Shown piece by piece: positions 264 to 23,443 of a stretch of 25,892 nucleotides of DNA. The position numbers and the translations under genes were made by a program. Numbering within the stretch: the stretch's first letter is position 1; every line of letters starts with the position of its first letter. Under the pieces are notes generated by a model, which saw only the letters and a program-made list of their open reading frames with translations, was not told where the DNA came from and made no database searches. The stretch is from a virus, in IMG/VR virus record IMGVR_UViG_3300045051_000287, positions 1 through 25,892 of that record; one strand, written 5' to 3'.

Positions 264-884
264 TTAGGTCCGACCCTCCGCTACGTAGGCCCGGAAGTTG
301 ATGAGGTTGGAGTACCACGCCACGTTCACCCCTTCGGCCGGGCCACTCCCGCCATCCGACACGCCGATAGGTTCGACGATGCTGGTCCCGGATGCGCTGT
401 GATAGGCGGCGGTCAGGTAGTCGAGCAGGGCATCCACGAGGACATCCATCCGCGCCGCCGCTTCGAGGTTGTCCGGGGTCCGGTCCACCAGCTCGACGGT
501 GAAGTTGTCGAGCATCCGCTGGCGGATACCCTGCATGGTCGTGATCGTTTCGCTGAGGTCCCCGATGACGGCACAGGGCAGATCGCCCACGGTGAAGCCC
601 GTGGGCCGGACCTGCCAGACCTTCCGCAGCAGCTTGGGGTTCGCCGTCTTCCAGGTGGTCAGGGTGCCGCTGATCCCGGCCCGCACGTCCTCTCGGAAGG
701 TCGTGTTGAGCGTCCACGTCACGCTGCCGTCCGTGACCGTCCACGGCGCAGCGGTGGCCCACGTAGGCTCCGTGCCGCCGGAGGTTCCGGCGACGGTGCA
801 GCGCCACAACGGCAGCCCGGCCGTTTCGGTGACGACCGCGCCCGCGAGGTAGTCGTGGTTCGGGAGCCAGTCGATGTCCGTCAC
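264..884 (-). CDS. Tail-terminator-position protein with N-terminal YxC/TEPTW domain
   Basis: This 206-aa protein has two parts. Residues about 1-65 carry a module frequent in phage structural proteins, with WRCTVAGTSGGTEPTW followed by TVTDGSVTWT; such modules are often near receptor or carbohydrate-binding regions, but that role is not proven here. Residues about 70-206 are alpha/beta, with a regular helix (LEAAARMDVLVDALLDYL) and a C-terminal WYSNLINFRAYV strand pair, compatible with a tail terminator (lambda gpU or SPP1 gp17 position). The start is GTG 884-882, in a GTGA overlap with the stop of the gp10-like gene. The order gp10-like, this gene, tail protein supports a neck/tail completion role. 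The N-terminal domain on a terminator is unusual. Confidence 0.55.
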   Translation of the reverse strand: MTDIDWLPNHDYLAGAVVTETAGLPLWRCTVAGTSGGTEPTWATAAPWTVTDGSVTWTLNTTFREDVRAGISGTLTTWKTANPKLLRKVWQVRPTGFTVGDLPCAVIGDLSETITTMQGIRQRMLDNFTVELVDRTPDNLEAAARMDVLVDALLDYLTAAYHSASGTSIVEPIGVSDGGSGPAEGVNVAWYSNLINFRAYVAEGRT

Positions 885-1342
885 GCCGCACCGTTCCAGC
901 GCTTGACGATCTCATCGAGGCCCACGCCCTTGATGGCCCGCTTCGCGCCGGGGATGAGGTACGGGAACGCTCGCGTCGCACCACGGATGACGCGCATGGC
1001 GAAGTGCGTCGGCTTGGACCCCGAGCGCAGCGAGCCCGTGAGCCTGCGAGCCCCGCCCCACGCAAGCACCCGCGCGGCCTTGGGCGTGATGACCGTGCCG
1101 CCCCTGGTCCCGAACTCGACGTAGCCTGAGTACGGCGCACCCGCGGTGACGGTCACGGACGTTGGGGTGGCGGCGGTCACGCGGATCTGGCGGATGAGGT
1201 TGCCGGTCTTCTTGTTGGGGCGCGCGAGCAACTGCGACTCCCGGACCACGGCGGTGCCGATCTGCTTCATCAGCCCGGTGTCCCCCGCGCCGATGGCGTG
1301 GAGCCGCGCCTGGAGCTGCTCGTACCCTTGGAGCGTCGCCAC
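881..1342 (-). CDS. HK97 gp10-like neck/tail assembly protein
   Basis: This 153-aa protein shows the HK97-gp10-like pattern: an N-terminal helical segment (GYEQLQARLHAIG), KKTGNLIRQIRV, then APYSGYVEFGTR, and a C-terminal part with FPYLIPGAKRAI. The YxxxVEFGTR block is the most diagnostic element. These proteins act at the head-tail interface or in tail completion in siphoviruses. The start is GTG 1342-1340, one base after the stop of the upstream Cys-rich microprotein. The stop overlaps the next gene by GTGA. Its position after the connector and before the terminator-position gene agrees with the family. Confidence 0.8.
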   Translation of the reverse strand: MATLQGYEQLQARLHAIGAGDTGLMKQIGTAVVRESQLLARPNKKTGNLIRQIRVTAATPTSVTVTAGAPYSGYVEFGTRGGTVITPKAARVLAWGGARRLTGSLRSGSKPTHFAMRVIRGATRAFPYLIPGAKRAIKGVGLDEIVKRWNGAA

Positions 1343-1343
1343 G

Positions 1344-1511
1344 TCAGAGGACCCCGTGCGCGACGAGCGAGCGCATGACCGCGATCATCCGGGCCGGCCC
1401 GCAGACGTGGCAGAGCCACATCGACCGACCCACGAGGGGGAGTTGCACGAGGCGGGCCTTGCGGCCGCACGGGCACGATGGCGTGATGATGGCGGTGCTA
1501 GAATGAGTCAT
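1344..1511 (-). CDS. Cys-rich microprotein (zinc-ribbon-like), 55 aa
   Basis: This short reading frame starts at ATG 1511-1509 and stops at TGA one base before the gp10-like start. It encodes 55 residues with a CPC pair (residues 13-15) and a CHVC pair (34-37), joined by a basic/hydrophobic linker (GRKARLVQLPLVGRSMW), the spacing of a small zinc ribbon. The tight junction with the following gene supports its reality. Its ATG shares the CATG palindrome with the start of the divergent HNH gene. It occupies the slot where a head-tail stopper would be expected but is too short to resemble one. Function unknown; a structural zinc knuckle in the neck or a nucleic-acid-binding accessory are both possible. 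Confidence 0.6.
   Translation of the reverse strand: MTHSSTAIITPSCPCGRKARLVQLPLVGRSMWLCHVCGPARMIAVMRSLVAHGVL
1496..1504 (+). promoter_or_regulatory. Extended -10 promoter for the HNH gene
   Basis: The plus strand reads TGCTAGAAT, an extended -10 (TGn followed by TAGAAT at 1499-1504). Only 5 nt separate it from the ATG at 1510, so transcription would start at or one base inside the start codon, giving a leaderless mRNA. No good -35 is visible at 16-18 bp spacing, which is tolerated by extended -10 promoters. This would give the antisense HNH gene its own expression, independent of the structural operon. Confidence 0.45.
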
Positions 1512-1983
1512 GCCGCCTCACGTCCCCCTTGCTGATCGGTTCTGGACGAAGGTCGACAAGTCCGGCGACTGTTGGATGTGGACCGCTCATCGGAACCGCG
1601 ACGGCTACGGGTTGGTCGGCCTCGACTTCCGAGGCGTGGACCGCTCGCACCGGGTCGCGTGGCGACTCACCTACGGCGACATACCACCAGGAATGCAGGT
1701 ACTCCACCGATGCGACACCCCCGGTTGCGTCCGACCGGATCATCTGTGGCTCGGCACCCATCTCGACAACATGGCTGATCGGCAGCGGAAGCATCGAACC
1801 CGAACGCCGTTTGTCGGACCGGGAAGTGCTGCCCCCAACGCCAAACTCCGCGACGAGGACATCCCGGTGATCCGGGCGTACGTCGCCATTGGCGTGGGGG
1901 ACACGGCAATCGCTCGGATGTACGGCGTCAGCCGCGTCACGATCAACCATGTCCGCACAGGCAAGAGTTGGAGTCATCTCTAA
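1510..1983 (+). CDS. HNH homing-type endonuclease, antisense to the operon
   Basis: This 157-aa protein is the only clear plus-strand gene. It opens with RFWTKVDKSGDCWMWTAH and has the HNH core with LHRCDTPGCVRPDHLWLGT (about 65-83, Cys68/Cys73 and His78) and a downstream Asn (LDNMADRQRK). The C-terminal 45 residues (AKLRDEDIPVIRAYVAIGVG, then GVSRVTINHVRTGKSW) form the helix-turn-helix repeat common in free-standing phage HNH nucleases. The family makes nicks or breaks in intron-less or genomic target sites and spreads by homing. It lies exactly between the connector and the Cys-rich microprotein. Its start overlaps the microprotein start (CATG) and its stop overlaps the connector stop (CTAA). 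A leaderless extended -10 lies upstream. Confidence 0.92.
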   Translation: MPPHVPLADRFWTKVDKSGDCWMWTAHRNRDGYGLVGLDFRGVDRSHRVAWRLTYGDIPPGMQVLHRCDTPGCVRPDHLWLGTHLDNMADRQRKHRTRTPFVGPGSAAPNAKLRDEDIPVIRAYVAIGVGDTAIARMYGVSRVTINHVRTGKSWSHL

Positions 1984-2666
1984 CCCGCCGAGACGACTTG
2001 CTGGCCAGCTTGCCATGACGCAATAAAGTCGACGACCGTCTTCGGAATGCCAGCATAGTTGATGATCCCACCTTGGGGAGTCACGATGGTTTCTGCCAAC
2101 AGGGACGCGGGTTGCTTGGTGAAGAATGCCGCGAGCTGCTTCACGGCGAGGAGCCACGCGAACGGGTACTGGCCGGCCGGATACCCCCCGTCCCCCACCA
2201 CGATGAGGTCGTTGGGCATCGAGGTCCACGCATAGCCGCCGCCGTAGTTGCCGGGGTAGAACGGGTTGTCGAGCGCGGCGTCCCACCAGTTCGGGTTCGC
2301 CAGCCACCACTCGTGCATGTCGCCTCGGAAGGGCCGGAACTGGAGGGCGGTGTAGACGCCGGTGTTCTGCACGTCCGGAAGCGGCCAGACCGCCTGGTTG
2401 ACGGTGAGCACGGAGCCGTACGCGGTGACGGTCGTAAAGGCGTTGAAGCCCGGAATGGGGACGATGGCCCGGAGCATCGTCGTCGCGGTGTACGTCACGG
2501 CGGGGCGGTTGACGAACCACCGCCGGGTCGCGCGCTCGAGGGTCTCCTGGGCGGCGAGGATGTTCGACTCGATCTGCCCATCGGAGAGCGACGAGTTGCC
2601 GGTGGGGTTGTCGGCTTCGAGCTGGAGATAGTCGCGGACCTCGGCGGCGGAAACGGTGAGCGTCAT
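1980..2666 (-). CDS. Head-tail connector (gp6-like adaptor)
   Basis: This 228-aa protein opens with TLTVSAAEVRDYLQLEADN followed by a helical stretch (SDGQIESNILAAQETLERAT), the typical start of HK97 gp6/SPP1 gp15-type connector proteins. The central region is unusually rich in Trp, Tyr, Pro and Gly (WWLANPNWWDAALDNPFY), and the end returns to helix (PFAWLLAVKQLAAFFTKQPA). Such proteins form a ring below the portal. The start ATG 2666-2664 lies in an ATGA overlap with the GT4 glycosyltransferase stop, so its translation is probably coupled to the sugar cassette. Its stop overlaps the HNH stop on the other strand. Confidence 0.75.
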   Translation of the reverse strand: MTLTVSAAEVRDYLQLEADNPTGNSSLSDGQIESNILAAQETLERATRRWFVNRPAVTYTATTMLRAIVPIPGFNAFTTVTAYGSVLTVNQAVWPLPDVQNTGVYTALQFRPFRGDMHEWWLANPNWWDAALDNPFYPGNYGGGYAWTSMPNDLIVVGDGGYPAGQYPFAWLLAVKQLAAFFTKQPASLLAETIVTPQGGIINYAGIPKTVVDFIASWQAGQQVVSAG

Positions 2667-3946
2667 GCTGCCAGCGCCTTTCCCAGCTTCGCTTCGATGA
2701 GTTCGACGAACTGCGTTGCCGCTCGGTCCCAGCGGAACAGCGCGCCGACGTGGATCGGCCCGAGGTCGCCGAGCTCTCTGCGCATCCTACGCGACCGCGC
2801 GAGCCGTTCGACGGCGGCCCCGAACAGGTCCTCCCGAACACCGGCCCAGAAGTACGAGTAGATGTTGTCGATCAACCCAGCCGGTGGGACGACGATGCCG
2901 GCCTTGCCGATGACCTCGGGGACGGATGAGAAGTCCATCCCCACCGCCGGCACGCCGCACGCGAGGGCCTCCGCGATGCACAGCCCGAAGCCCTCCGCCG
3001 CGCCGGTCACGTAGATGTCGGCGGCGTTGAGCATGGCGCAGAGCAACGGCCGATCAACCGGCACCCCGGCATCGTGGAGGCCGGTCGTGAGCATCCGCTT
3101 CTGGAGCTCGACGGGATAGCCCGACTTCTCGATCTCGAGATCCCCGCCGTTGTAGATGGTCCGGGTGTGGTAGACGAGATCGACCTCGGGGTTCCGCGCA
3201 AGGACCGGCGCGAGGGACCGGAAGAGCGACTGCCAGCGCTTCCGGGGGACGTTGGCGTCGTGGCGGAACAACGTCACCCGGCCCGGCTGCCAGACCGGGC
3301 GCGACGGCGAGCCGTCCTGGTAGTTCACCGTGAGCATCGACCCCATGAACCGCTTGCAGTCGTCCTTGGAGCGGAGGGCCACGAAGCCCGATCGGGTCTT
3401 GATCGTGATGGGGTGCGCCTGGGACACGGGGTAGAAGGCGTCGGTGTCGACGCCGTGGTAGATGACCGCCGGGCGCTCGGGGTAGATGGTGGCGATCTCG
3501 TCCGCTCCAGCCTCGCACATCGCCACGGGCGTCATTTGGCGCCAGATGTCCGCGTGCCGGGGCTTCAGCCCCACCCCCTCGACGGGGACGTAGTGCCAGA
3601 CCGGGAAGCCGTCGGGGATGAAGCGCAGGATGTCCGAGAGATCGACTGAGGCGTGGTCGCCGATGATGATCGCCGCCTCGGGGCTCCAGCCGTCGATCTC
3701 CCGGAACAGGGCGTCCATCCGGCGCAGGATGACCTCGGCCTCCTCGGGAGACTTGGGGGTGCCGATCCAGCCATCCGTGGTCCCCAAGGCGATGACGCGG
3801 CCCTTGAACGCCTCGGGCAGATCCTTGGACTGGTTGAGCGACACGAACCGCACGTCCACGTCCTGCTTGAGCAAGGCCGCGCCCAAGTCACTCGTGACCG
3901 TGCCGAACCCGCTGACCGCGAGGTCACCGAGCACCAGCAGTCTCAT
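2663..3946 (-). CDS. GT4-type (GT-B fold) glycosyltransferase
   Basis: This 427-aa protein has a GT-B layout. The N-terminal Rossmann half begins MRLLVLGDLAVSGFGTVTSD; a link region contains VIYHGVDTDAFYPV, the classic start of the donor-binding half. EGFGLCIAEALACGVPAVG carries the E-x7-E donor nucleotide/phosphate signature (Glu318 and Glu326), followed by VPEVIGKAGIVVPP. It should transfer a hexose from a nucleotide sugar to an acceptor not identifiable from sequence. The ATG at 3946 is chosen because it overlaps the preceding stop as ATGA; a GTG three codons upstream is possible. It is the last sugar-related gene and overlaps the connector gene as ATGA. Confidence 0.9.
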   Translation of the reverse strand: MRLLVLGDLAVSGFGTVTSDLGAALLKQDVDVRFVSLNQSKDLPEAFKGRVIALGTTDGWIGTPKSPEEAEVILRRMDALFREIDGWSPEAAIIIGDHASVDLSDILRFIPDGFPVWHYVPVEGVGLKPRHADIWRQMTPVAMCEAGADEIATIYPERPAVIYHGVDTDAFYPVSQAHPITIKTRSGFVALRSKDDCKRFMGSMLTVNYQDGSPSRPVWQPGRVTLFRHDANVPRKRWQSLFRSLAPVLARNPEVDLVYHTRTIYNGGDLEIEKSGYPVELQKRMLTTGLHDAGVPVDRPLLCAMLNAADIYVTGAAEGFGLCIAEALACGVPAVGMDFSSVPEVIGKAGIVVPPAGLIDNIYSYFWAGVREDLFGAAVERLARSRRMRRELGDLGPIHVGALFRWDRAATQFVELIEAKLGKALAA

Positions 3947-4164
3947 GGGATGCACACGTGCTGCGGGTCAAGGTCGGACGGTTCCGTGAGCGTGTGCCCG
4001 TACAGCTTCACCGACACCAGCACCTGCTCGTCGGTGAGCTTGCACGCCTTGGCGTTGATGCGACCCGCCTTGATCCCGAGGCGGTGCCACGACCCGTTGA
4101 CCTTGACGAACAGGAAGTCAGGCACGCGCGCCGAGACATGGCGCGTGCTGCCCGTGGCCTTCAT
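3943..4164 (-). CDS. Small hypothetical protein of the sugar cassette, 73 aa
   Basis: The start ATG 4164-4162 overlaps the acyltransferase stop (ATGA), and its stop overlaps the GT4 start (ATGA). The 73-aa product is basic at first (MKATGSTRHVSARVP), then DFLFVKVNGSWHRLGIKAG, and ends with a region rich in Lys, Asp and Val. No known domain is recognised. The predicted strands could form a small beta-barrel or SH3-like fold. Its place between an acyltransferase and a glycosyltransferase suggests an accessory or substrate role for that cassette, but this is only context. Confidence 0.65.
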   Translation of the reverse strand: MKATGSTRHVSARVPDFLFVKVNGSWHRLGIKAGRINAKACKLTDEQVLVSVKLYGHTLTEPSDLDPQHVCIP

Positions 4165-4835
4165 GCCGGCACCCCGAGGAACGAGACGATGCGCTGGTGG
4201 AGCTGCGCGAGTCGAGGTTGTGCTTCGGCCGGGTACTCGCGGTAGTGGTTCGTCCAGGGGTAGCGGATGCCCTCCCACGTGAGGTCCGAGACATTCTTGA
4301 GGGTGCCCTTGACGAGTGCCATCGCGTCCGGGACATCGCGGGTGACGACCGTCCCGGCGCCCACGAACGACCCGAGCCCGATCCGCACGCCCGCGACAAC
4401 GACGCAGTTCATCGTGACCACGGACCCTTCGTCGAGGATGGCGGGGACGTTCACCCGCGACGGCGGCAGGCGGTTGTCGGTGACGTATGACCCCCCGTAC
4501 AACCGCGAGAAGTGGCGGAGCGTGCCCTTCGTCATCTCGCAGTCGCCGTGGATGCGCACGTAGTCACCGATCTCCCCGCCCCCTTCGAGCCGGGACATCG
4601 TGCCGATGCGGAGGTTCGTCCCGATCTCGTTGCCCGTGCGGATGAGGACGTGGTGCCCCGTTTCGAGGCCGTTGCCGATGCTGTTGCCGCCTTCGATGAT
4701 CGAGTGGCTGCGGACGATCGAGCCTTCCCCGAGGTACAGGTGCCCGTGGTCGGAGCCGATGATGCAGTACGGCTCGATGACCACCGAGGGGTGGAGCGTC
4801 ACGTTCGGGTGGATCAGGGCGGTTGGATGGATCAT
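4161..4835 (-). CDS. Left-handed beta-helix acyltransferase (hexapeptide family)
   Basis: This 224-aa protein is made of [LIV]-G-x-x-x-x hexapeptide turns from residue 1 to about 165 (HPTALIHPNVTLHPSVVIEP, IGSDHGHLYLG, IGNGLETGHHVLIR, IGTNLRIGT, IGDYVRIHG). The final coil VGAGTVVTRDVPDAMALVKG is typical of sugar O- or N-acyltransferases of the LpxA/WbbJ superfamily. His residues in HHVLIR and RIHGDCE are candidates for catalysis. A helical C-terminal tail follows (YPAEAQPRLAQLHQRI). It most likely acetylates a sugar hydroxyl or amino group using acyl-CoA. The start ATG 4835-4833 overlaps the SGNH gene stop as ATGA. Confidence 0.88.
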   Translation of the reverse strand: MIHPTALIHPNVTLHPSVVIEPYCIIGSDHGHLYLGEGSIVRSHSIIEGGNSIGNGLETGHHVLIRTGNEIGTNLRIGTMSRLEGGGEIGDYVRIHGDCEMTKGTLRHFSRLYGGSYVTDNRLPPSRVNVPAILDEGSVVTMNCVVVAGVRIGLGSFVGAGTVVTRDVPDAMALVKGTLKNVSDLTWEGIRYPWTNHYREYPAEAQPRLAQLHQRIVSFLGVPA

Positions 4836-5353
4836 GCGAGCACCATCGAGACCGCGCGGGCGTACTGGCGATGCCCTTCCGCGTCCAGGTGCAGCCCATC
4901 CGGCAGGACGCCCGTCACGCTCGACACGTCGATGACCGCGACGTTGTTCTCCCGCGCCACGTCCCGGAGGATGGAGTCGTACCAGCGCACGTCCTGGGCG
5001 TGCTGTGGGCTCCGGGTCGAGGGGGTCAGGGAGCAAAGGTACGGCACGGCCCCGAACCGCCGACTGCGGTCGATCATCTCGTGGAGGTTGGCCGCGTACG
5101 CCTGCGGGGAAACGCGCGGAAGTCCCCGGTCGCTCTGCCAGCGGTTGCAATCGTTGTGGCCGAACTGGATGACCACGATCTCGGGCTCGTGCGCCTGTAC
5201 GTCCTTGGGGAACCGCTCCAAGCCCAAGCGTGTCGTGTCACCGGAAACGCCCCGGACCAGCACCGGGCCGGCGGTGAGCAACACCGGCCACGGTACGTCC
5301 GGGGGGTCAAGATGCTGGCCCACGGTGATCGAGTCGCCGACACACACGATCAC
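4832..5353 (-). CDS. SGNH/GDSL-family hydrolase
   Basis: This 173-aa protein has the SGNH blocks: GDSITVG (6-12, nucleophile Ser8), a Gly in RGVSGDTT, GHND (block III, Asn), and DGLHLD near the C-terminus giving the Asp-x-x-His pair. No signal peptide or membrane segment is seen, so it should act in the cytoplasm. Family members are esterases, often removing acetyl groups from carbohydrates, and some act as acyltransferases. Next to a hexapeptide acyltransferase it may edit or transfer acyl groups on the same sugar. The start GTG 5353-5351 overlaps the upstream glycosyltransferase stop (GTGA). Confidence 0.87.
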   Translation of the reverse strand: MIVCVGDSITVGQHLDPPDVPWPVLLTAGPVLVRGVSGDTTRLGLERFPKDVQAHEPEIVVIQFGHNDCNRWQSDRGLPRVSPQAYAANLHEMIDRSRRFGAVPYLCSLTPSTRSPQHAQDVRWYDSILRDVARENNVAVIDVSSVTGVLPDGLHLDAEGHRQYARAVSMVLA

Positions 5354-6198
5354 ATCGGCACCGTCGTGTAGTCGAAGACCGGTCGGGGGAGGGTCGGGAG
5401 ATCGTCCTCCTGGCCCGTCTTGGCGACGACCATCTCCCGGTCGTTGCAGAACGCCCGCGAGGCGAGCACCTGCGCGTCGGTGCGGAGCAGCGTCCGGTGC
5501 TCGACGGTGTACGGCGTGACGAACCGGGCGTGCGGGAGCTGCTGGCGGGAAGCATCGCCGGCCCATGCCCAGACCGGGCGATTGTCCTTCGTGCCACCGA
5601 CCCACCAGTGGTGATGCTCGACCCGCAGATGGAGCGACGCCCGCCAGACCTGGGGGATCATCTGCGGCCCCTCGGTCTGGGCAAGGTGCCATTGCCCCGC
5701 CGCGCTTCGCACGTCGCCGCGCTTGGCGTTCCGGGGGGTGATGAACGGCACGTCCACCACATCGGCGGTTGAGGCGTACAGCTCGTTCCGCACCGCGTCG
5801 CGCTCGGTCTTGATGATGTGGTCCGCGTCGAGGGTCACGATCCAGTCACTCCCCACCCCGGCGAGGGCGAGCAGGTGGTTGCGCTTCTCGATCTGGCCGG
5901 CCCACAGCCGGTCGGGGATGACCACGAGGCAGTCCAGCTTCGCCTTGTCGCAGGCGTCCCGGATAGCCTTGGCCTGGCGGGGGTGGCTCATCACCGTGGC
6001 CCCCGGATACCGGGCGTACGCGCCATCGAGGGCCACCACGCGGTCGGCGATCTGCGCGGCGCCCTTGATGCAGGCCACGAGATCCTCGGGCCGCTCGTTC
6101 CACCAGCACAGCGCGGCGGTGACGATCATCGTCCGGTGACTCTTGACCGGCTCCGGCACCTGCCAGTACGACCGGCCGTACTCGCTGATCCCATTCAC
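5350..6198 (-). CDS. GT2-like (GT-A fold) glycosyltransferase
   Basis: This 282-aa protein has a GT-A fold pattern: TMIVTAALCWWNERPEDLVA at 23-42, RVVALDGAYARYPG, a charged helix with IEKRNHLLALAG, then SDWIVTLDADHIIK with the metal-binding DxD (DAD at 124-126). A His-rich acceptor-side region follows (LHLRVEHHHWWVGG). It should transfer a sugar from a nucleotide donor; donor and acceptor are unknown. The start GTG 6198-6196 is in a GTGA overlap with the amide ligase gene. An upstream in-frame extension exists but would run deep into the previous gene. Confidence 0.82.
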   Translation of the reverse strand: MNGISEYGRSYWQVPEPVKSHRTMIVTAALCWWNERPEDLVACIKGAAQIADRVVALDGAYARYPGATVMSHPRQAKAIRDACDKAKLDCLVVIPDRLWAGQIEKRNHLLALAGVGSDWIVTLDADHIIKTERDAVRNELYASTADVVDVPFITPRNAKRGDVRSAAGQWHLAQTEGPQMIPQVWRASLHLRVEHHHWWVGGTKDNRPVWAWAGDASRQQLPHARFVTPYTVEHRTLLRTDAQVLASRAFCNDREMVVAKTGQEDDLPTLPRPVFDYTTVPM

Positions 6199-7058
6199 GC
6201 GGCCCGCTTCCGTGGCTTGGCGGGCTCGTCGAGGCCCACGAGGGCGTACCACCACGTCCGGTCGAACGGCTTGCGGGCGTCCGGGAGGTAGCCCAAGCGA
6301 TCCCCGACGAACGAGCGCACGGGTTCTGTCTGGGCCCAGATGGCGAGGGGCGCCGGGAAGCCCATCTTGTCGGTCCGGTCGATGATCCGGTCGGGCACGA
6401 TGCCCCTGACAGCCTGACGGAGATGACGCTTGCCCACCCGCTCGGTGTCGGGCAACGCGAGGGCGTAGTCCACGATGGCGTGATCCGTGAACGGCGCGCG
6501 TGCCTCGATCCCGAACGCGCCGGTCATCTGGTCGTCGACCGCGAGGAGCTGCGGGAGGCGGTCGAGGTCGTACTGGAGGGCGTCGTGGAGGTTGGACGGG
6601 TAGTCCTTCGGGGGCTTGTAGCCCTTGTAGCCATCGGGCAGCCTCTCCCCCGCCGCCAAGAGCGTCCGAGCGTAGCCGCCGAACAGCTCGTCGCTGCCTT
6701 CCCCCGAGAGCGCGATCCTGATCCCGTGCTCGCTGAGGTAGCGGGCGACCATGTACTGCCCGAACGTGCCCATCCCCTGGACCGGGGGCTTGATGTGGCG
6801 GACCATCGTGTCGAAGTTATCCACGAAGTCCTGCGGCGTGATGCGGATCTCGTGGTGGACCGGGTGGCTCACAAGGCGGGCGTACTCCCGCTCGTCAAAG
6901 CCCGGCAGGTCGTAGTAGCCGGTGAACGTCGGCAGGTTGCGTGGGGACAGTCGCGCGACCGTCGAACTGTCCAAGCCGCCCGAGAGCACGATCCCCGTCG
7001 CGGGGCCGATCCGTGCCTGAATGGCACGGTCGATGAGCGAGAGCAAGGCGATCCCCAT
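6195..7058 (-). CDS. Stand-alone asparagine-synthetase-type amide ligase domain
   Basis: This 287-aa protein corresponds to only the C-terminal synthetase half of AsnB. The ATP pyrophosphatase loop LSGGLDSS is at 25-32 and the SGEGSDELFGGY block at 118-129; RAPFTDHAIVDYALALP and KMGFPAPLAIW follow. The N-terminal glutaminase domain (about 200 residues, Cys2 nucleophile) is absent. It would activate a carboxylate by adenylation and form an amide using free ammonia or ammonia from a separate glutaminase. In O-antigen clusters, related enzymes amidate uronic acids, a plausible role among glycosyltransferases. The start is ATG 7058-7056, two bases after the epimerase stop, with an AAAGGG ribosome site. 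Confidence 0.9.
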   Translation of the reverse strand: MGIALLSLIDRAIQARIGPATGIVLSGGLDSSTVARLSPRNLPTFTGYYDLPGFDEREYARLVSHPVHHEIRITPQDFVDNFDTMVRHIKPPVQGMGTFGQYMVARYLSEHGIRIALSGEGSDELFGGYARTLLAAGERLPDGYKGYKPPKDYPSNLHDALQYDLDRLPQLLAVDDQMTGAFGIEARAPFTDHAIVDYALALPDTERVGKRHLRQAVRGIVPDRIIDRTDKMGFPAPLAIWAQTEPVRSFVGDRLGYLPDARKPFDRTWWYALVGLDEPAKPRKRAA

Positions 7059-7060
7059 TG

Positions 7061-7948
7061 CTACCCTTTCAGCGCCAAGTGCGTGTAAACCTCGGCCGGT
7101 GGGTGCTCGGCGTACCACGCCACCGCTGCCTTGATGCCGGTGCTGAGATGCGTCCGGGCCGTCCAGCCGAACTCCTCGCGGGTGTGCGAGGGGTCGAGGA
7201 GGAGCGTCGCCACGTCGTCGGGTCCGCGTGCCTGGCGGATCGGCTCCGCGGCGCGCCCCATCGCGGTACCCACCTCCCCGTAGAGCTGCTCGATCGCGTA
7301 GTCACGACCGCTGCTGACATGGTACGGCCCCGATCCCCTCGCGAGGGCGTGCAGCGCGACGCGCACGAGGTCGTCGATGAACACGAAGTCCCGGCGCGAG
7401 TCCACGACGGTGCAGGGCTTCCCCTCGCTGAGCCGCTGGTAGAACGTCGGCACCGGACCCGACAGGTTGCGGGGGCCGTAGACGTTGGCGAGTCGGAGGG
7501 ACACGTAGTCGAGCCCCGAGTCACGGATGTACCGCTCGCCGGCCGTCTTCGACACCGCGTACGAGCCCACGGGCGCGATGGGGGCATCGATCTGCACCGG
7601 GGAGGCGGGGGTGGGACCGTAGCAGAGCGAGGTCTGGAAGTAGATGAGGCGCGCCTTGGTCTTCTGGGCCTCGCGGATGACGTTGATCGTGCCCCCGATG
7701 TTCACCGAGGCGTCCCGCTCCCAGTCGGCGCGGTCCTTGTACGACGCGGCGCAGTGGTAGATCACTTCCGCGCCTACGGGCAGCCAGCCCCGCACGTCGC
7801 CGAAGTGGAAGGCCACCGCGTCGGGGACGTTCTCCCGGCGCCCGGTGGTCAGGTCGTCAATGCCCGTGACCTCGTGCCCCTGCTCGAGGAGCGCGTCGGC
7901 AAGGTGCGAGCCGATGAAGCCCGCGACGCCGGTGATGAGGATCTTCAC
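7061..7948 (-). CDS. NAD-dependent sugar epimerase/dehydratase (extended SDR)
   Basis: This 295-aa protein starts MKILITGVAGFIGSHLADAL with the NAD-binding GxxGxxG (7-13), then DDLTTGRREN. The active-site triad is visible: Ser107 in QTSLCYG and Tyr130/Lys134 in SYAVSKTAGE. RLANVYGPRN and the FVFIDDLV segment complete the extended SDR pattern of GalE/RmlB/WbpP-type enzymes acting on nucleotide sugars. Whether it is a 4-epimerase, dehydratase or uronate-forming enzyme cannot be decided by eye. The start GTG 7948-7946 overlaps the GT2 stop as GTGA. It supplies the only visible nucleotide-sugar conversion step in the cassette. Confidence 0.9.
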   Translation of the reverse strand: MKILITGVAGFIGSHLADALLEQGHEVTGIDDLTTGRRENVPDAVAFHFGDVRGWLPVGAEVIYHCAASYKDRADWERDASVNIGGTINVIREAQKTKARLIYFQTSLCYGPTPASPVQIDAPIAPVGSYAVSKTAGERYIRDSGLDYVSLRLANVYGPRNLSGPVPTFYQRLSEGKPCTVVDSRRDFVFIDDLVRVALHALARGSGPYHVSSGRDYAIEQLYGEVGTAMGRAAEPIRQARGPDDVATLLLDPSHTREEFGWTARTHLSTGIKAAVAWYAEHPPAEVYTHLALKG

Positions 7949-8568
7949 GCCGCACCGATCTTGACGTAGAGCTCGGTGGACTCCGGTGCCACGTCCGACA
8001 GCTTGGAGTGGATGAGGAAGGCGCTCTTCGGGGCCTTCGGGAGCAACGCCGTGCCCCGGATCGACGACTCGCCCATGCCGCCGAGCTGGACCAACTCGTG
8101 CACCGGGCGATACCACTGTGCCTCGGACGTGCGGAACAGGCGGCAGTGCCAGTGCTCCTCCCATTCGGGGCCTTGTACGCCGTCCTCATAGTTCTTGGTG
8201 AAGAAGAGATACCCCCGCGGAGCCGGGTACCGAGCACCCTGCCAGGTCACGTCCGACCACTCGGACGCATCGACGGAACGCACGAAATCGAGCATCGCCA
8301 CGGTCGGCAGCTCGTCGGGGTCGAGAATGAGCGTCCAGTCACCCTTGCAGTGGGGGAGGGCGGCGTTCCGCCCGGCCGAGAAGTCGTCGACCCACTGGAA
8401 GGGAACGACGGTGCATCCCTCCCAGTGGGCGACGGTATTCGATGTCTCCGCTGCCGTCCGGTCATCGACCACGAACACGAAGTCCGAGACGACTGGCCGC
8501 AGGAACTCCACGAGCATGGAGAGGCGGTCCAGGGGCGGGTCCTTGACCAAGAAGGCAGCGGAGATCAT
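7945..8568 (-). CDS. GT2-family glycosyltransferase
   Basis: This 207-aa protein is a compact GT-A glycosyltransferase. It has an N-terminal ISAAFLVKDPPLDRLSML, VFVVDDRTAAETSN, the FQWVDDFSAGRNAAL block that precedes the metal site in this family, and the metal site DWTLILDPDEL (DPDE at 83-86). It is shorter than most GT2 enzymes and has no membrane segments. The ATG at 8568-8566 is 3 nt after the major capsid stop, so it should be co-expressed with the capsid. This makes it the first gene of the sugar cassette and the best candidate for the enzyme that touches the capsid. Confidence 0.87.
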   Translation of the reverse strand: MISAAFLVKDPPLDRLSMLVEFLRPVVSDFVFVVDDRTAAETSNTVAHWEGCTVVPFQWVDDFSAGRNAALPHCKGDWTLILDPDELPTVAMLDFVRSVDASEWSDVTWQGARYPAPRGYLFFTKNYEDGVQGPEWEEHWHCRLFRTSEAQWYRPVHELVQLGGMGESSIRGTALLPKAPKSAFLIHSKLSDVAPESTELYVKIGAA

Positions 8569-8571
8569 GGC

Positions 8572-9981
8572 CTACGGAATCAGGCCGGTGATGAGCTGGA
8601 ACGCACCCACGGCCACTGCCGTGTCTGCGTTGATCCCGAACTCTTCCTCACCGCGGAAGCCGATGAGGTTCTTGTCCCAGCGGTCGCCGGCGATGTCGGT
8701 CGAATCCACCCGGAACTCCATGCCCCGGTAGAACTTGAGCGTCTTCCACTCGCCGATGATGCCGATCTTCGTGGCCGCGTTGGTCCCGAGATCCGCGTCA
8801 TGGTAGATGGGGATGCCCCGCCACTTGAGCTGGTTGTCCCCACCGATCGAGAAGCCGGCGCCGAGGAACTCGGACATCCAGAAGCCAGCGCTGTCGGAGC
8901 CCTGGCTCCAGAGCGTCCAGAACGTCAGGGCACTGACCACGGCGGCGTCCGCGTCCCGGCTACGAGCGCCGAGGGCGGCCATCGCGGTGGCAAGGCCCGC
9001 CGCCGCCGAACCGGCCACGGTGGAGGCCGAGCCGGTGAAGGCGGTGGTGTAGACGTTGCCGAGGAGGGACGTGTAGACACCCTTGGTGGGGTCATTCACG
9101 CCGGGGGTGGCGGAGCCGGTGCCCGGACCCGCGATGACGGCCTTGTTCTCGGCGAGGGCCGCCGACTTGGTGAGCTCGTCGAGGACATCGGCCTCGGCCG
9201 CACCCGCGGAGAACCGCGCGTACTGCTTGCCGATGTCGTAGATCTTGGCGAACGTGCCGAGGGTCGCGGTGTACGTGCCGTACGCCTCGTCCACGTTGGT
9301 CTTGGTGGCGCCCCAGTTCTGGGCCGTCATCGCCGCCGGCGCTCCGGTGCGGTACGGCTGGTCGATCCCTCGGACCATGACGCCCGGAATGACCGTCACG
9401 ATCGGGTTGGCACCCGTGTAGACGGCCCGCTGGGTGTTCGGCTTGACGAGGGTGGCGACGAGGTTGTTCGGGAGGACGTAGCCGCCCGTGGCACCCGTCG
9501 TGCCGAGGGTGGCCTTGCCTTCCGGCGCGGCGAGGTAGGTGAGCCCGAGCTTCTCGAGCGACGCCTTGCCGGCCTGCTTGTCGCCGTTGAGCATCCCCAT
9601 CTCCGCGACGGCGGAGAGGAAGGTGCCGGCGGTGTAGGCCTCGCCGAGCGACGCCTTGAGGGCCGGGCTGGCGCCCATGTCGAAGTTGGCCGCGATCCGG
9701 GCAGTCTGTTCGAGCGATGGGCCACCGCCCACCTGGGCGGCGATGGACGGGGTGCGGATGTCGAGCAGGGCGGCCTTCACGGCCTCCTGCGCGATGGCCT
9801 TGAACTCCTCGCGGAGCTTCTTGGACTCGTCGGCCTCAGCGGCGTTGGCGATGTCGGTGCGGGCCTTCGCCAGCTCCGGGAGCGCCTCGACGGCCTTGGC
9901 GTCGCGGGTCGTGGTGGCGACCTTCGTCGCCTCGCGGATGGCAGCCTCGAGGCTGCCTACCCGATCTTCGAGATCAGTCAC
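8572..9981 (-). CDS. HK97-fold major capsid protein
   Basis: This 469-aa protein has an N-terminal charged helical delta/scaffold region (LEDRVGSLEAAIREATK to about residue 75). The shell domain contains GATGGYVLPNNLVATLV, the E-loop region, LTKSAALAENKAVIAGPGTG, WRGIPIYHDADL and a final strand region (FRVDSTDIAGDRWDKNLIGF). The length and order match HK97-type capsids with a fused scaffold removed by the prohead protease. The GTG at 9981-9979 overlaps the protease gene by 8 bp and has GGGAAG upstream. The Ser/Thr/Ala-rich insertion TTAFTGSASTVAGSAAAG may be surface-exposed and is a speculative glycosylation target for the adjacent enzymes. Confidence 0.92.
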   Translation of the reverse strand: MTDLEDRVGSLEAAIREATKVATTTRDAKAVEALPELAKARTDIANAAEADESKKLREEFKAIAQEAVKAALLDIRTPSIAAQVGGGPSLEQTARIAANFDMGASPALKASLGEAYTAGTFLSAVAEMGMLNGDKQAGKASLEKLGLTYLAAPEGKATLGTTGATGGYVLPNNLVATLVKPNTQRAVYTGANPIVTVIPGVMVRGIDQPYRTGAPAAMTAQNWGATKTNVDEAYGTYTATLGTFAKIYDIGKQYARFSAGAAEADVLDELTKSAALAENKAVIAGPGTGSATPGVNDPTKGVYTSLLGNVYTTAFTGSASTVAGSAAAGLATAMAALGARSRDADAAVVSALTFWTLWSQGSDSAGFWMSEFLGAGFSIGGDNQLKWRGIPIYHDADLGTNAATKIGIIGEWKTLKFYRGMEFRVDSTDIAGDRWDKNLIGFRGEEEFGINADTAVAVGAFQLITGLIP

Positions 9982-11071: not shown

Positions 11072-11328
11072 GCCTCGATCCAGTCGATGAGGTCGAGCAG
11101 CATCTCGTCCTCGTGGTTGCGCTTGAAGCGAGCCGTGGCGGCAGCGATGGTCGCCGCGTCGATCCGCCGAGTCCCCGTTGGGCCGCGATAGTCCACGGGT
11201 TGCATCGCCCGCTGGCTCCAGAGAATGCCGGATGGCGTGCCGACGATCGTGTGGTCCTCGTTCCACTCGGCGGCCCCGATGAGCGCCGCACCCGGCGCCG
11301 TCGTGGTGTGCGTGACGGTGAGCGTCAC
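11068..11328 (-). CDS. Hypothetical structural-operon protein, 86 aa
   Basis: The GTG start (11328-11326) overlaps the portal-MuF stop and the stop overlaps the protease start, both by four bases. The N-terminus TLTVTHTTTAPGAALIGAAE followed by WNEDHTIVG resembles a short WNxDH motif common in phage tail and fibre proteins. The second half is helical and acidic (ARFKRNHEDEMLLDLIDWIE). No domain is certain. It may be a minor capsid or decoration-type accessory. Confidence 0.65.
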   Translation of the reverse strand: MTLTVTHTTTAPGAALIGAAEWNEDHTIVGTPSGILWSQRAMQPVDYRGPTGTRRIDAATIAAATARFKRNHEDEMLLDLIDWIEA

Positions 11329-13826
11329 AGGAGCTCGTCGCGGACTTCGGTGATGTTGCCCGCCGCGTCACGACTGACGACCTTGCGGGTGCGCGGTGGG
11401 GCGTAGTTCACCACCGGCGCTGGGACGTTGACGATGGGGGCAGGGGCAGGGGGCTGATTGCGGATCGTCTCGGCGAAGCGGTCGAAGGCGGCCGCGATGG
11501 CGCTGAGATCGACGTTGATGACGGGCGGGGTGTAGACGACCGGATCGACCGGCCGCTCGGCCTGGGTGGTCATGGCCTTCGCCACGTCGGAGAGTGTCCG
11601 CTGGAGGGTGGCGTTCTGGGCCTGCTCGTCGCGCTGGAGCTCGCTGAGCAACTCCTGGACCTTCGTCCCCCGGAGCGACGCCTTGACGGGCGCGAAGTCG
11701 AGGACGGGCACCCAATCTAAGGTCCCATTGGGGTGATCCTCGATGCCATCGGCTTCCTCAATGGGGAACTCCCGACCATCCCGTGCGGCGCATTCCTCGT
11801 CCTGGTCGCCGTCCATCGCCTGCACCGTCCGCACCCCGGCGTCACCGTACGAGTAGAGGGCGGCGGCGTTGTACGCGTCCATGAGCTCGGTCCGGGCGAT
11901 CATCTCCGCCCGGTACGCCAGATCCCCCACGACGCCGCCGGAGCGCCCGATGAGGGGCGTCAGGTCCGTACCGGCCTCGATGGCATCCGCGACCTCCGCG
12001 AGATCCACCCCCTGGTCGATGGCGGTCACGAGGATGTCCGCGATCTCCCCACGGGTCGTGTCGTTGATCTTCGTGACCCGTGCCACACCTCGAGAGAGCA
12101 CCCGATCCACGGCGGTCTCCCCGATGGGGTCGGCCTTGGCGGGGAGCTGCTCGGCCACCTGCCGGGAGACGGACGTTGCCATGCCCGCCAGCCCACCCAC
12201 GAGCGCGGAGCGGAGGGCCTGGTCCCAGCGCTTGCCGTCCCACCACACCGACGTGTCCTTGGGGTTCGCGGCGATGTGACTGGCCCTTCCCCGGATCCGC
12301 TGGGCGATCTCGGTCCGCTGCTCCCGGAGGACCCCGGCCACGGCTTCACGGATGCGGGGCGTGTGGTGGGTGGCGATGCTGTCCCGGAGGGCGAGGAGCG
12401 AGCGGCGCATCGGCTCCAAACGCGCGATGAGGTTGGCCTTGCCGGCGGTCGTCTCGCCCGCGGCGCCCATCGCGGCATCGCTGGCCGGTTCGGTATTACC
12501 GATGACGGTCGGCTCGCCAGTCGCCATCTGGACCTTTTTGCCGTTCTCATCGGGGGCCTGGAAGGCGGGCACCATCGTGGCCGGCAGCCACACCGCGTCA
12601 TCGACGCCCGGATCGTTGAACGGATCGAGCCCGATGAGCGCCCGGCGTTCGGAGTTGCGCATGGCGATGTTGATCGACTTCCCCAAGAGGTCATAGCGGG
12701 GGGAGTCGTCGTCGAACTCCGGCTCCTCGAGGATGAGGTCGGGCGTCCAGCCGAGGCGCTTCTGCCACTTGTCGATGATGCTGTCCTGGAGCCCCTCGCC
12801 CAAGATCACCAGCCGGTCGTGGACGGGACCCTGCCACAGCGCCGCCTCGTCGTACTTGCGCGAGTCCCCGGAGTTGAGCCCGGTCGAATGGGCCACCCCG
12901 ACGATCGTGCCCGGCACGTTCCAGACCACGAACAGGTCGTCGCGCATGAGCTTCATCAGCTCCACGATCGCCAGTTGGTCCGGGGTCATCGTGGTCTGCT
13001 GGAACTCGATCGGTGCGGCGATGAGCTGGATGCGCTTGGCGGCGTCGGGCTGCTCGGTGATCGTCCGCCAGTCGCGCTCCATCTGGAGGAGCTGCTCGCC
13101 CTGGATGACGCCTTCCTTCGGCGAGATGAAGCCCGACAACCGCCCGCCGGCTTGGAGGACGGACGCGATATGGCGGTCGAGGTTCGTGCTGACCTGGGCC
13201 ATGAGGAGCGCCGTCTCCACGAGGCCCACCCCGAAGTGCCCGCTGTCGGGGGGTTCGAGCATGAAGTGGATGATCTGCTCGAGGCTGACCTCGATGCCCG
13301 GCGAGGTCGGGGTCTTATCGATCTGCCACGACTTGAGGTTGCCTTGGCTGTCGTCGTTGGGCGTGAGGCGGTCGGGTCGCAGGTACGCCAGCCCCTTCGG
13401 GGTGCCGGCGAATGCCTCGGGCTGGTCCTGGAGGAGGAAGCCGTTGCCCGCCAGCCCCAGATGCCGGGACAACAGGCGCAGCAGCGATGAGCGGCTGAGG
13501 GGCTGCCCGATCCCCAGGAGGGCCTGCGGCTTGTCGAGGAGCGCCCACGCCGCCACCGCGTCCGGGTTGGGGTACGTGGCGTCGATCTCGACCCCCTCGG
13601 GGTCGTTGAGGTCCACGTCAACCGTGGCGACCTTGGAGCCAATGGCTCGCTCGGCGGTCCTGATCCACGGCGTGTTCCAGCCCATCTGGTAGGCCGTCCG
13701 CATCTTCGTGTGGGGGTCCTTGCCGAGGAAGCTGAACAGCGGGTACTCGGTCAGGAGCACGCCCGCCCCCGACCCGATGGGCCCGGCCTTCACGGGTGCG
13801 GCCTTGGCGGGGATGTAGATGCTCAC
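11325..13826 (-). CDS. Portal protein fused to MuF-type head morphogenesis domain
   Basis: This 833-aa protein is about twice a normal portal. Residues about 1-430 are an HK97/PBSX-type portal (GLAYLRPDRLTPND, then LFVVWNVPGTIVGV and a long stem helix region). After a Gly/Ala/Thr-rich link, about 500-710 is a helical MuF-like domain with RAEMIARTELMDAYNAAAL, GVRTVQAMDGDQDEEC and IEDHPNGTLDWVPVL in place of the usual HPNCRC ending. The last 120 residues are Pro/Val-rich (VYTPPVINVDL, PAPAPIVNVPAPVVNY) and end in a charged strand. The portal forms the DNA gateway; MuF proteins are injected or assist head assembly. The GTG start overlaps the small membrane gene stop (GTGA). Confidence 0.88.
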   Translation of the reverse strand: MSIYIPAKAAPVKAGPIGSGAGVLLTEYPLFSFLGKDPHTKMRTAYQMGWNTPWIRTAERAIGSKVATVDVDLNDPEGVEIDATYPNPDAVAAWALLDKPQALLGIGQPLSRSSLLRLLSRHLGLAGNGFLLQDQPEAFAGTPKGLAYLRPDRLTPNDDSQGNLKSWQIDKTPTSPGIEVSLEQIIHFMLEPPDSGHFGVGLVETALLMAQVSTNLDRHIASVLQAGGRLSGFISPKEGVIQGEQLLQMERDWRTITEQPDAAKRIQLIAAPIEFQQTTMTPDQLAIVELMKLMRDDLFVVWNVPGTIVGVAHSTGLNSGDSRKYDEAALWQGPVHDRLVILGEGLQDSIIDKWQKRLGWTPDLILEEPEFDDDSPRYDLLGKSINIAMRNSERRALIGLDPFNDPGVDDAVWLPATMVPAFQAPDENGKKVQMATGEPTVIGNTEPASDAAMGAAGETTAGKANLIARLEPMRRSLLALRDSIATHHTPRIREAVAGVLREQRTEIAQRIRGRASHIAANPKDTSVWWDGKRWDQALRSALVGGLAGMATSVSRQVAEQLPAKADPIGETAVDRVLSRGVARVTKINDTTRGEIADILVTAIDQGVDLAEVADAIEAGTDLTPLIGRSGGVVGDLAYRAEMIARTELMDAYNAAALYSYGDAGVRTVQAMDGDQDEECAARDGREFPIEEADGIEDHPNGTLDWVPVLDFAPVKASLRGTKVQELLSELQRDEQAQNATLQRTLSDVAKAMTTQAERPVDPVVYTPPVINVDLSAIAAAFDRFAETIRNQPPAPAPIVNVPAPVVNYAPPRTRKVVSRDAAGNITEVRDELL

Positions 13827-13987
13827 GGCTTCGGCTCAGCAGGCGGCGTGCGCTGGTCGGTGAGGTACCACGACAGAAGGAAGTACCCGGCCGCCACGAT
13901 CAGGGCCGCTGGCGGGAAGACGATCGCCACGCCTGCCACGGACAGGGCGTAGGCGACATCGAGTGCCGAGACGCCGGGGATCGTCAC
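13823..13987 (-). CDS. Small membrane protein between terminase and portal, 54 aa
   Basis: The start GTG 13987-13985 overlaps the large terminase stop (GTGA), and its TGA overlaps the portal GTG. The product has a hydrophobic core from about residue 11 to 42 (AYALSVAGVAIVFPPAALIV, then AAGYFLLSWYL), long enough for one membrane helix or a tight hairpin. It ends in a Pro/Lys tail (TPPAEPKP). A holin-like or membrane-anchoring role is possible, but holins usually sit near lysis genes. The double overlap makes it a convincing gene. Confidence 0.7.
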   Translation of the reverse strand: MTIPGVSALDVAYALSVAGVAIVFPPAALIVAAGYFLLSWYLTDQRTPPAEPKP

Positions 13988-15264
13988 GCCCGGACGCTCA
14001 CGGTCTTACCCACGAGTTGCTTCCACGGGTTGTCCTCCAGCGCGCCGGTGATCCCGACCACGCCGTAGCGTAGGGCATCGCAGGCGTCGTCATTGACCTC
14101 GATCGGTTCCTCGTGGAAACCGCCGGCCCGGTCGGGTTTCCAGGTGTAGCCGGGCATCTCGCCCAAGAGCCCGGCGCAGTTGGGGTCGACGGTCATTCCC
14201 GAGGCGATGGCGATGGACACGGCGTCGATGCCCGGCGACACCGCGTTGGCCGCAGGGACCATCGGGATACCGGCCCGCTGGCACTGGAGGATGTAGCCCG
14301 GCTCGGACGGGTCGCCGTAGAACGTCGTCACCCCGTGGAGGTCCTTCACGAGTTGGAGGCGGAGGATGATCTGGTCGATCGTCATGCCCTTCTCGTAGAG
14401 CTCGTCGATGACCGCGAGGCGGCCTGACCCGGACATGCCGATGACCTCGCAGGCGAAGGCGTGGACGAAGCCCCAGTCCACCCCCGCGGCGATGGTCTTG
14501 TACGGGGGCGTACCACGTTGTACCTGCTCCGTGGGCAGCGTCCAGATGACCCCCTCGGCCGCGGACCACTCACCCTTGCCCAGCCGCCGACCCGCCGCGG
14601 TGTCGGGGAGGGTGCGGAGCATCTCCACGTACTCGGCCGAGAGGAAGCGGTTGCGCTTGATCGCGATCATCTTGCGGTTGGGGACGTTCGCCGTCATCCG
14701 CGTGCGGAGCCAGTGCTTCGGCGGTCCGGGGTTGGTGGCGGCGGCGAGTTGGTGCCACGGCATCCGGGGATCGCGCAACCGTCCGAGGAGCATGATCCAG
14801 TCCTCCTCGGTCAGCTCCACCGCCTCATCCACGCCCGCCCAACCGAGGTCGAGCGAGCCCACCTTGGACGGGACGCCCGTGATCGGGTCGGGGTCGAGCC
14901 CGAGGAAGTAGATCCGGCTGCCGTTGGCGAGGCCGAACCAGTGCTCCGACTTGTTCCGCCCCGCATGGCCGGGGGCGAGGTAGCGGGGCTCCAGGACATC
15001 CCGTTCGAAGGTCCGTTGCGTCGTGGCGGCGATGGAGTTCTGCGCCTTGCGGAACAGGCCCACCGTGACGCCGGGATAGCGACGTGCCACGTTCCACGCC
15101 TTCTGGCACAGGACCCGCGACTTGCCGGCGCCCATCCAGCCCGAGGCCACGAGCTCCATGTGGCGGGAGCCGAAGAACTCCGTATGTTCGAGCGAGGCGT
15201 AGTCGAGGGGGACGGCGATCTCGTGGGCGATCTCCGCGAGCACGGGCTCAGGCGCCTCGATCAC
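13984..15264 (-). CDS. terL: Terminase large subunit (DNA packaging ATPase/nuclease)
   Basis: This 426-aa protein has the complete packaging motor layout. Walker A is GWMGAGKS (42-49), Walker B is GWAGVDEAVE (Asp146-Glu147), and the coupling motif is AATNPG (175-180). The RNase H-like nuclease domain has GVDWGF (Asp263), FYGDPSEPGY (Asp318) and NDDACDALRYG (Asp392, Asp393 and Asp396). It translocates phage DNA into the prohead and cuts the concatemer. The type looks PBSX/P22-like rather than lambda-like. The GTG start overlaps the small subunit stop (GTGA). Confidence 0.95.
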   Translation of the reverse strand: MIEAPEPVLAEIAHEIAVPLDYASLEHTEFFGSRHMELVASGWMGAGKSRVLCQKAWNVARRYPGVTVGLFRKAQNSIAATTQRTFERDVLEPRYLAPGHAGRNKSEHWFGLANGSRIYFLGLDPDPITGVPSKVGSLDLGWAGVDEAVELTEEDWIMLLGRLRDPRMPWHQLAAATNPGPPKHWLRTRMTANVPNRKMIAIKRNRFLSAEYVEMLRTLPDTAAGRRLGKGEWSAAEGVIWTLPTEQVQRGTPPYKTIAAGVDWGFVHAFACEVIGMSGSGRLAVIDELYEKGMTIDQIILRLQLVKDLHGVTTFYGDPSEPGYILQCQRAGIPMVPAANAVSPGIDAVSIAIASGMTVDPNCAGLLGEMPGYTWKPDRAGGFHEEPIEVNDDACDALRYGVVGITGALEDNPWKQLVGKTVSVRA

Positions 15265-18565: not shown

Positions 18566-18596
18566 GTCTTCTCCCTGACTTCCCACTGTTCACCCG

Positions 18597-23011: not shown

Positions 23012-23443
23012 CTACCCCTCCCCGAGCTGGCGGTCGATGGCGGCGAGGACGTCTCGGCGTTCGACCATGAAACGGCGCGGCGTCACGTCGTCGAACTCAA
23101 AGGCCAGCCCCTCTACCACCCCTCGCAGCGCCAGGGCGTCACGGCGGCCACGGGTGACCTCCGGTGGAAACTTGGAGCACGGGACCTTCTGAACGCTCTC
23201 GATCCCCTCGATGAAGTGCCAGCCATGCACCGCCGCGCTCTCGTGGTAGTCGCAGGCGGGCGGCGTCTCACCCCACCAATGAACATCGTGCTTCACCGCA
23301 AGGGCGAGGACCCGGAGTTCCCACGGCATGGGCTCATCAGCATCCCAGCTCATCCGTTCGACCGCGCCTTCCTCGATGGCCTTGGTGAATGCCAGCAGGT
23401 CGTCGGCGTAGACTTTCTCGGGCTCCGGGCCACTCGGACTCAC
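23012..23443 (-). CDS. Hypothetical protein, 143 aa
   Basis: The start GTG 23443 has GGAGG 6 nt upstream, and both lie inside the 22-bp repeat shared with the methyltransferase start. The product (MSPSGPEPEKVYADDLLAFT, EEGAVERMSWDADEPMPWEL, CDYHESAAVHGWHFIEGIES) ends in a charged region. No family is recognised. Its first 107 bp overlap the open end of the methyltransferase frame. The strong ribosome site makes this the better-supported start. Confidence 0.65.
   Translation of the reverse strand: MSPSGPEPEKVYADDLLAFTKAIEEGAVERMSWDADEPMPWELRVLALAVKHDVHWWGETPPACDYHESAAVHGWHFIEGIESVQKVPCSKFPPEVTRGRRDALALRGVVEGLAFEFDDVTPRRFMVERRDVLAAIDRQLGEG

Follow-up and report, generated by a model that had tools for sequence, protein, structure and literature searches.

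A variable glycan-gene slot in the head operon of uncultured phages as a candidate virion glycosylation locus

The IMG/VR virus record IMGVR_UViG_3300045051_000287 (hereafter the window, i.e., the entire contig of 25,892 bp) carries eight glycan-modification genes between the genes of its major capsid protein (MCP) and its head-tail adaptor (HTA). In our view this cassette, integrated into the head operon, is likely to be a locus for virion glycosylation that acts in the cytoplasm and can be exchanged in the manner of O-antigen loci; we infer which protein accepts the glycan, which sugar it contains, in what order the enzymes act, and what the phage gains. What makes the cassette most interesting, visible only by comparing relatives, is that the slot is polymorphic and its centre can be swapped.

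An earlier note on this DNA had described eight coupled genes running from 3 nt after the MCP stop codon to an overlap with HTA, and both gene calls and profile matches confirmed this arrangement. From the upstream to the downstream edge, the slot contains the following genes (GT, glycosyltransferase):

8572..9981, minus strand: MCP, HK97 fold, upstream slot edge and candidate acceptor (PF05065 9e-10, TIGR01554 2e-11, phrog_10 7e-14)
7945..8568, minus strand: GT2a, a 207-aa GT-A glycosyltransferase, first in the cassette (PF00535 4.7e-6)
7061..7948, minus strand: SDR, an extended short-chain dehydrogenase/epimerase (PF01370 7e-44)
6195..7058, minus strand: AsnB, the synthetase domain alone (PF00733 1.7e-52; no GATase match)
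5350..6198, minus strand: GT2b, a glycosyltransferase (phrog_7009 1.5e-14; no Pfam match)
4832..5353, minus strand: SGNH/GDSL hydrolase, a possible sugar esterase (PF13472 3e-26; GTG start at 5353)
4161..4835, minus strand: LbH, a left-handed beta-helix acyltransferase (PF00132 8e-13)
3943..4164, minus strand: p73, a small protein (no Pfam or PHROGs match)
2663..3946, minus strand: GT4, a GT-B glycosyltransferase, the constant cassette gene (PF13692 2e-10)
1980..2666, minus strand: HTA, downstream slot edge, kept in relatives (phrog_442 1.7e-6)

Of the nine gene junctions between MCP and HTA, seven overlap by 4 nt (GT2a/SDR, AsnB/GT2b, GT2b/SGNH, SGNH/LbH, LbH/p73, p73/GT4, and GT4/HTA, the last with the sequence ATGA) and the remaining two are gaps of 3 nt (MCP to GT2a) and 2 nt (SDR to AsnB), so the block seems set for translation with the capsid, and this operon coupling suggests that the cassette is expressed with the virion genes. 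A codon-usage gene finder returned identical genes and junctions, with the GT4 start placed 12 nt later. Database matches or family membership mark the cassette genes as real coding genes, p73 excepted. The GC content (0.66–0.70) is even over MCP, the cassette, and HTA, and base composition gives no sign of a foreign origin.

Relatives of the locus were sought in viral contigs mainly with MCP, GT2a, and HTA profiles, followed by gene calling and protein clustering; the genes of L019, L273, and L274 were read by tblastn. Distinct loci were counted after near-identical contigs had been collapsed by eye, which gave 24 loci with both MCP and HTA (17 of a first set together with L205, L208, L213, L217, L274, L210, and L211). 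Glycan genes were present in the slot of all 24 and it was empty in none, with a length of 3.2–6.3 kb in the 17 loci measured. GT4 immediately precedes HTA in 23 of the 24 (in L211 another gene intervenes), the 4-nt GT4/HTA overlap recurs in 21 of 22 loci measured, and GT2a lies directly 3' of MCP in most cassette types. The centre of the slot varies, and p73 is missing from the closest relative, L003, as from every other clustered locus.

At least ten gene combinations were found in the slot centre. The order SDR-AsnB-GT2b-SGNH-LbH is that of the window and L003, while the L009 group combines SDR-AsnB with GT2 genes (its protein family d13 was recognised as GT2 via a relative). Other centres hold a cytidylyltransferase and further genes (L168, L169, L208), GT2 and rhamnosyltransferase-like genes (L175, L182), an FkbM methyltransferase with GT-B pairs (L171, L174, L180, L185, L191, L274), or a single methyltransferase (L217, L215). 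The centre of L210 and L211 encodes a QdtA/FdtA-type 3,4-ketoisomerase, GNAT-like, acyl carrier protein (ACP)-like, and FabG-like SDR proteins, and KAS III, the ACP, GNAT, and FabG labels being assigned by eye from the sequence; the content of these cassettes (L210:6615-10354, L211:6615-9954) would suit the synthesis of an acyl group destined for an amino sugar. Clustered families without a Pfam match proved to be GTs where tested: d23 is a GT by profile search, d24 has a predicted GT-B fold (AlphaFold pLDDT 84; MurG, PimA, and HepE among the top structural matches), d38 is a GT by a weak match only, and d75, d77, and d80 have no assignment.

Cassette types are scattered over the MCP, HTA, and GT4 trees on well-supported (starred) branches, and on the MCP tree most of them need more than one change given these branches; type T2 (L009) falls inside or adjoins the T4 pair L175/L182 in one starred clade of all three trees. 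The DNA of L205 and L217 is 88–91% identical from portal/protease into GT2a and again from the GT4 start onward, whereas the gene content between these flanks differs. L210 and L211 share 98% DNA identity from the first base of GT2a over about 5 kb, a block within which L210 has one extra GT2 gene, yet their capsids are 31% identical and their GT4 proteins about half identical. The exchanged block can thus include GT2a while GT4 stays with the backbone, which would make GT4 the foremost candidate for the enzyme that encounters a phage-specific acceptor. In the AsnB tree, L015 and L016, with differing head-gene backgrounds, are close sisters (100/99). Judged from these sequence comparisons, phages exchange the centre by recombining at conserved edges, and relatives would accordingly bear different coats, like O-antigen serotypes.

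Several slot edges carry genes on the opposite strand: an HNH_3 homing-type endonuclease in the window (1510-1983, plus strand), an Endonuclease VII and an HNH relative in L002 (11388-11912 and 12586-12915, minus strand), and open reading frames (ORFs) of no known family, similarly placed, in L173, L209, L211, L212, and L215. Homing-type endonucleases at the slot edges could be drivers of cassette exchange.

The SDR-AsnB core also occurs in or next to the head modules of other phage groups. Together with GTs it lies downstream of protease-MCP (L005, L015) or of a protease-MCP fusion (L030), downstream of terminase-portal (L013, L023, L024) or of a terminase (L029), and upstream of head-completion genes (L025, L026); upstream of terminase-portal, L016 and L018 have SDR-AsnB and L020 has AsnB without SDR. 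L006 and L022 show no clear fit to head-module proximity. The terminases next to these cassettes belong to differing PHROG families (2, 9, 38), and the TerL, portal, and MCP families differ as well. Among 10 long records, 7 have the cassette no more than 2.5 kb from TerL, portal, or MCP, against 2.7 expected under random placement (P about 0.005, from a rough null with distance cut-offs chosen after the data had been seen). Several unrelated phage groups may have taken up the core into their head modules. Within these loci, the fused protease and MCP of L030 (3122-5671) is 849 aa long and lies immediately upstream of the cassette, and L006 encodes a 506-aa protein (452-1972) whose N-terminus matches RNA ligase profiles and whose C-terminus matches profiles of DNA methyltransferase and head maturation protease. 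GT2a-methyltransferase pairs were seen in other phages (L220:1477-4709; L221:5861-7092), the L220 pair following, at a distance of about 0.9 kb, a gene labelled terminase-like by eye.

The closest solved relatives of the SDR are Bordetella WbmH (2q1w, 3e-78, 266 bits) and WbmG (2pzk, 7e-67, 229 bits), with scores far exceeding those to GalE-type enzymes, and its alignment to 2q1w shows the GxxGxxG cofactor motif and the catalytic T, Y, and K, the TYK triad described for WbmG/WbmH in the work on WbmF-H function in the Bordetella O antigen (PMC2279256). The AsnB-type ligase named in the earlier note has the PF00733 synthetase domain and keeps the synthetase motifs of class II asparagine synthetase, but the N-terminal glutaminase (GATase) domain of that enzyme is absent from all 14 aligned sequences (the window and 13 relatives), which are about 270–290 aa long and conserve SGG(L/V/I)DSS and SGEG(S/A)DELFGGY. 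This stand-alone form was found in about two dozen viral loci at 48–76% identity, its best cellular matches are at about 30% (35–44% over a few short local stretches), and it looks confined to phages. WbpS and other AsnB-family enzymes convert uronic acids of bacterial glycans to amides, and deletion of the AsnB homologue WbpS in P. gingivalis abolished glucuronamide (PMC7468200); the window protein resembles WbpS and WbqG in family and differs from them in being phage-encoded, stand-alone, and located beside head genes. Among 50,697 cultured-phage records, the best AsnB and SDR matches over most of the query reached 28.6% and 31.5% identity. The nearest solved relatives of LbH are the sugar N-acetyltransferase QdtC (8e-25) and a lipopolysaccharide (LPS)-biosynthesis acetyltransferase (3mqg, 2e-10), GT2b recurs beside SDR-AsnB in many phage loci, and the GT4 profile matches GT4 enzymes. 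SDR, AsnB, and LbH together suggest an amidated, possibly di-N-acylated, uronic acid, and the window glycan probably contains an amidated uronic acid; that the cassette amidates at all is what the AsnB fold points to.

In the mechanism that we propose, the SDR, of the WbmG/WbmH type, would oxidise or epimerise C4 of a uridine diphosphate (UDP)-(di-N-acyl)uronic acid or a similar UDP-sugar supplied by the host. The AsnB domain would adenylate the sugar carboxylate and convert it to an amide (uronamide) with free ammonia or another amine, a donor needed because the glutaminase domain is lacking. LbH may N- or O-acylate the sugar, with possible ester trimming by the SGNH enzyme. The constant GT4 would begin the glycan on the protein, perhaps together with GT2a, since the nearest solved relatives of the latter include protein glycosyltransferases, and GT2b and the other GTs of the centre would extend it. 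The description of the cassette as near self-contained was too strong: it has no nucleotidyltransferase, dehydrogenase, or aminotransferase for the supply of a nucleoside diphosphate (NDP)-sugar, which must hence come from the host. We give about even chances to a broader scheme of phage-particle serotypes, in which the fixed GT4 (often with GT2a) anchors the glycan, the exchangeable centre, shared among phages with capsid identities down to 31%, determines which sugar is used (amidated uronic acid, methylated, 3-keto-derived amino, or acylated), and the SDR-AsnB core has entered the head modules of unrelated groups.

The head genes of the window are all on the minus strand in the order usual for phage heads, and those outside the slot are:

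13984..15264, minus strand: large terminase subunit (PF04466, phrog_2)
11325..13826, minus strand: portal protein with a C-terminal Mu F-like domain (PF04860 7e-22, PF04233 5e-5)
about 11065-9974, minus strand: unassigned protein at the protease/scaffold position (by position)
881..1342, minus strand: neck/tail completion protein (phrog_5 2.8e-12)
264-884, minus strand: protein at the tail-terminator position (by position)

The earlier note had named the virion as the probable target, and a virion protein fits better than the alternatives considered below: the slot is fixed in 24 of 24 relatives, SDR-AsnB recurs in the head modules of other lineages, and the machinery seems soluble. In the slots of the 17 distinct loci covered by a hydropathy scan, no flippase, polymerase, ligase, or membrane or lipid-carrier GT was found, and hydropathy stayed at the level of soluble proteins, the exceptions being a 53-aa ORF and some borderline stretches of GT2a and d80. 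The acceptor should thus be cytoplasmic, where heads form. In the window we regard MCP as the most likely acceptor, as it starts the unit and no fibre gene occupies the place between portal and protease; that a virion protein carries the glycan is, like the acceptor itself, something we infer. The benefits suggested in the earlier note, namely shielding from antibodies, particle stability, and altered adsorption, are hypothetical.

Several observations weigh against virion glycosylation with the capsid as acceptor. Gene position is evidence of co-expression and co-inheritance and not of the acceptor. The first solved-structure matches of a four-sequence GT2a profile, the protein glycosyltransferases GmaR (4.6e-9) and SunS (3e-4), span the nucleotide-binding half only, which is common to many GT2 enzymes (the structure predicted from the four sequences has pLDDT 55). 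Two cassette types have no GT2a, and as one GT2a stands beside the 31% identical capsids of L210 and L211, it would read either a general feature or something other than MCP. In some relatives, collagen-like and beta-helix proteins encoded between portal and protease could plausibly serve as acceptors instead. The roughness of the proximity null belongs here too, as does the finding that relatives of MCP, GT2a, and GT4 occur in none of the cultured-phage records. Nor did the MCP profile match any of 296 genomes from the phylum to which the Nocardioides genome belongs, or any of 6 others, a null that says little for phages that look virulent.

It is unlikely that the acceptor is another virion protein (neck, tail, or head fibre) and not the capsid shell. 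In favour of such a target, GT4 is coupled to HTA and for L170/L180 tracks it in the trees better than it tracks MCP, and between portal and protease L181 has a beta-helix protein and L168 collagen-like proteins with extra GT4 and cytidylyltransferase genes. The window, however, has only an 86-aa ORF at that place and a full cassette nonetheless, and the slot starts immediately 3' of MCP. In the L168 region (1815-5360 and 5491-7986), genes for two collagen-like proteins (PF01391, best 5e-22) occur with an additional GT4 and a cytidylyltransferase, and the region is a possible second slot with glycosylated head fibres; L172 and L180 have genes without assignment between portal and protease.

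Modification of the host surface (receptor masking, superinfection exclusion, or serotype conversion) by genes merely co-transcribed with the head genes is improbable in our view. GT2, GT4, SDR, AsnB, LbH, and SGNH are all gene types characteristic of O-antigen or capsule loci, and the SDR relative WbmH belongs to an O-antigen locus, but the scanned slots lack the membrane machinery listed above and the late position in the head operon is fixed across the relatives. The tyrosine integrase PF00589 was found in none of 8 lineage-A records and the resolvase PF00239 in none of 11 (records that may be incomplete), which makes lysogenic conversion unlikely. DNA hypermodification, in which the GTs would add sugars to modified bases, is very improbable. 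Phage GTs do so in other systems (Pyle et al. 2024, as cited in PMC12619734), but the cassette sits in the head operon, the DNA methyltransferases of the window are ordinary, and the thymidylate synthase/dCMP hydroxymethylase family was detected in none of 11 lineage-A records, several of which are possibly fragments (the control was positive in 9 of 14 genomes); the missing genes would speak against the best-known DNA-sugar routes. These methyltransferases lie at 16179-17177 and 23337-24134 (minus strand; PF01555; phrog_363), beside a helicase (17174-18586). Selfish cargo without a virion role was rejected because it leaves the never-empty slot unexplained.

Virion glycosylation itself is already known, and Freeman et al. 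reportedly described it in 2023 for the mycobacteriophages Che8, Corndog, and Myrna. According to PMC12363180 and PMC12619734, mycobacteriophages carry glycans on capsid and tail-tube proteins and encode the GTs themselves. The present locus shares with such systems the phage-encoded GTs (Che8 has three adjacent GT genes), here with soluble partners and coupled to virion genes. In Che8, by contrast, only an 11-nt gap separates MCP from the adaptor that directly follows it, and the GTs are encoded at the far end of the genome, while sugar-modifying enzymes and an exchangeable slot are features of the locus described here. Che8 gp108-110 were rejected as homologues of GT2a and GT4, as no relation was detectable: hhalign gave probabilities < 1 for GT2a against gp109/gp110 and for GT4 against gp108, and phmmer with gp108-110 recovered neither. 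If our proposal is right, the locus would work like the mycobacteriophage system, with a separate origin and more sugar-modifying steps. With O-antigen and capsule serotype loci it has in common constant edges, a variable centre of GT and sugar-modifying genes, and exchange by recombination; unlike them, it lies in a head operon, and Wzx/Wzy/ligase-type membrane proteins were not seen in the 17 loci. It also differs from serotype-converting gtr-like morons, having neither a membrane flippase/lipid-carrier GT nor, in the records tested, an integrase. The literature searched, which left most subscription journals outside its scope, contained no description of such a cassette or slot, and the variable glycan slot in a head operon appears to be new.

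For bacteria, variation of the surface sugars is a means of escape from phages and predators. If the proposal holds, phages would vary their own particle surface in a modular way, the mirror image of this bacterial variation, and the slot would provide a genomic marker for glycosylated virions among uncultured phages. In addition, glycoprotein biochemistry would gain a new family of stand-alone AsnB domains together with GTs that possibly act on protein. In soil or water no antibodies act, and the purpose of a particle coat there would become testable in terms of persistence, surface adsorption, protist grazing, and non-specific binding.

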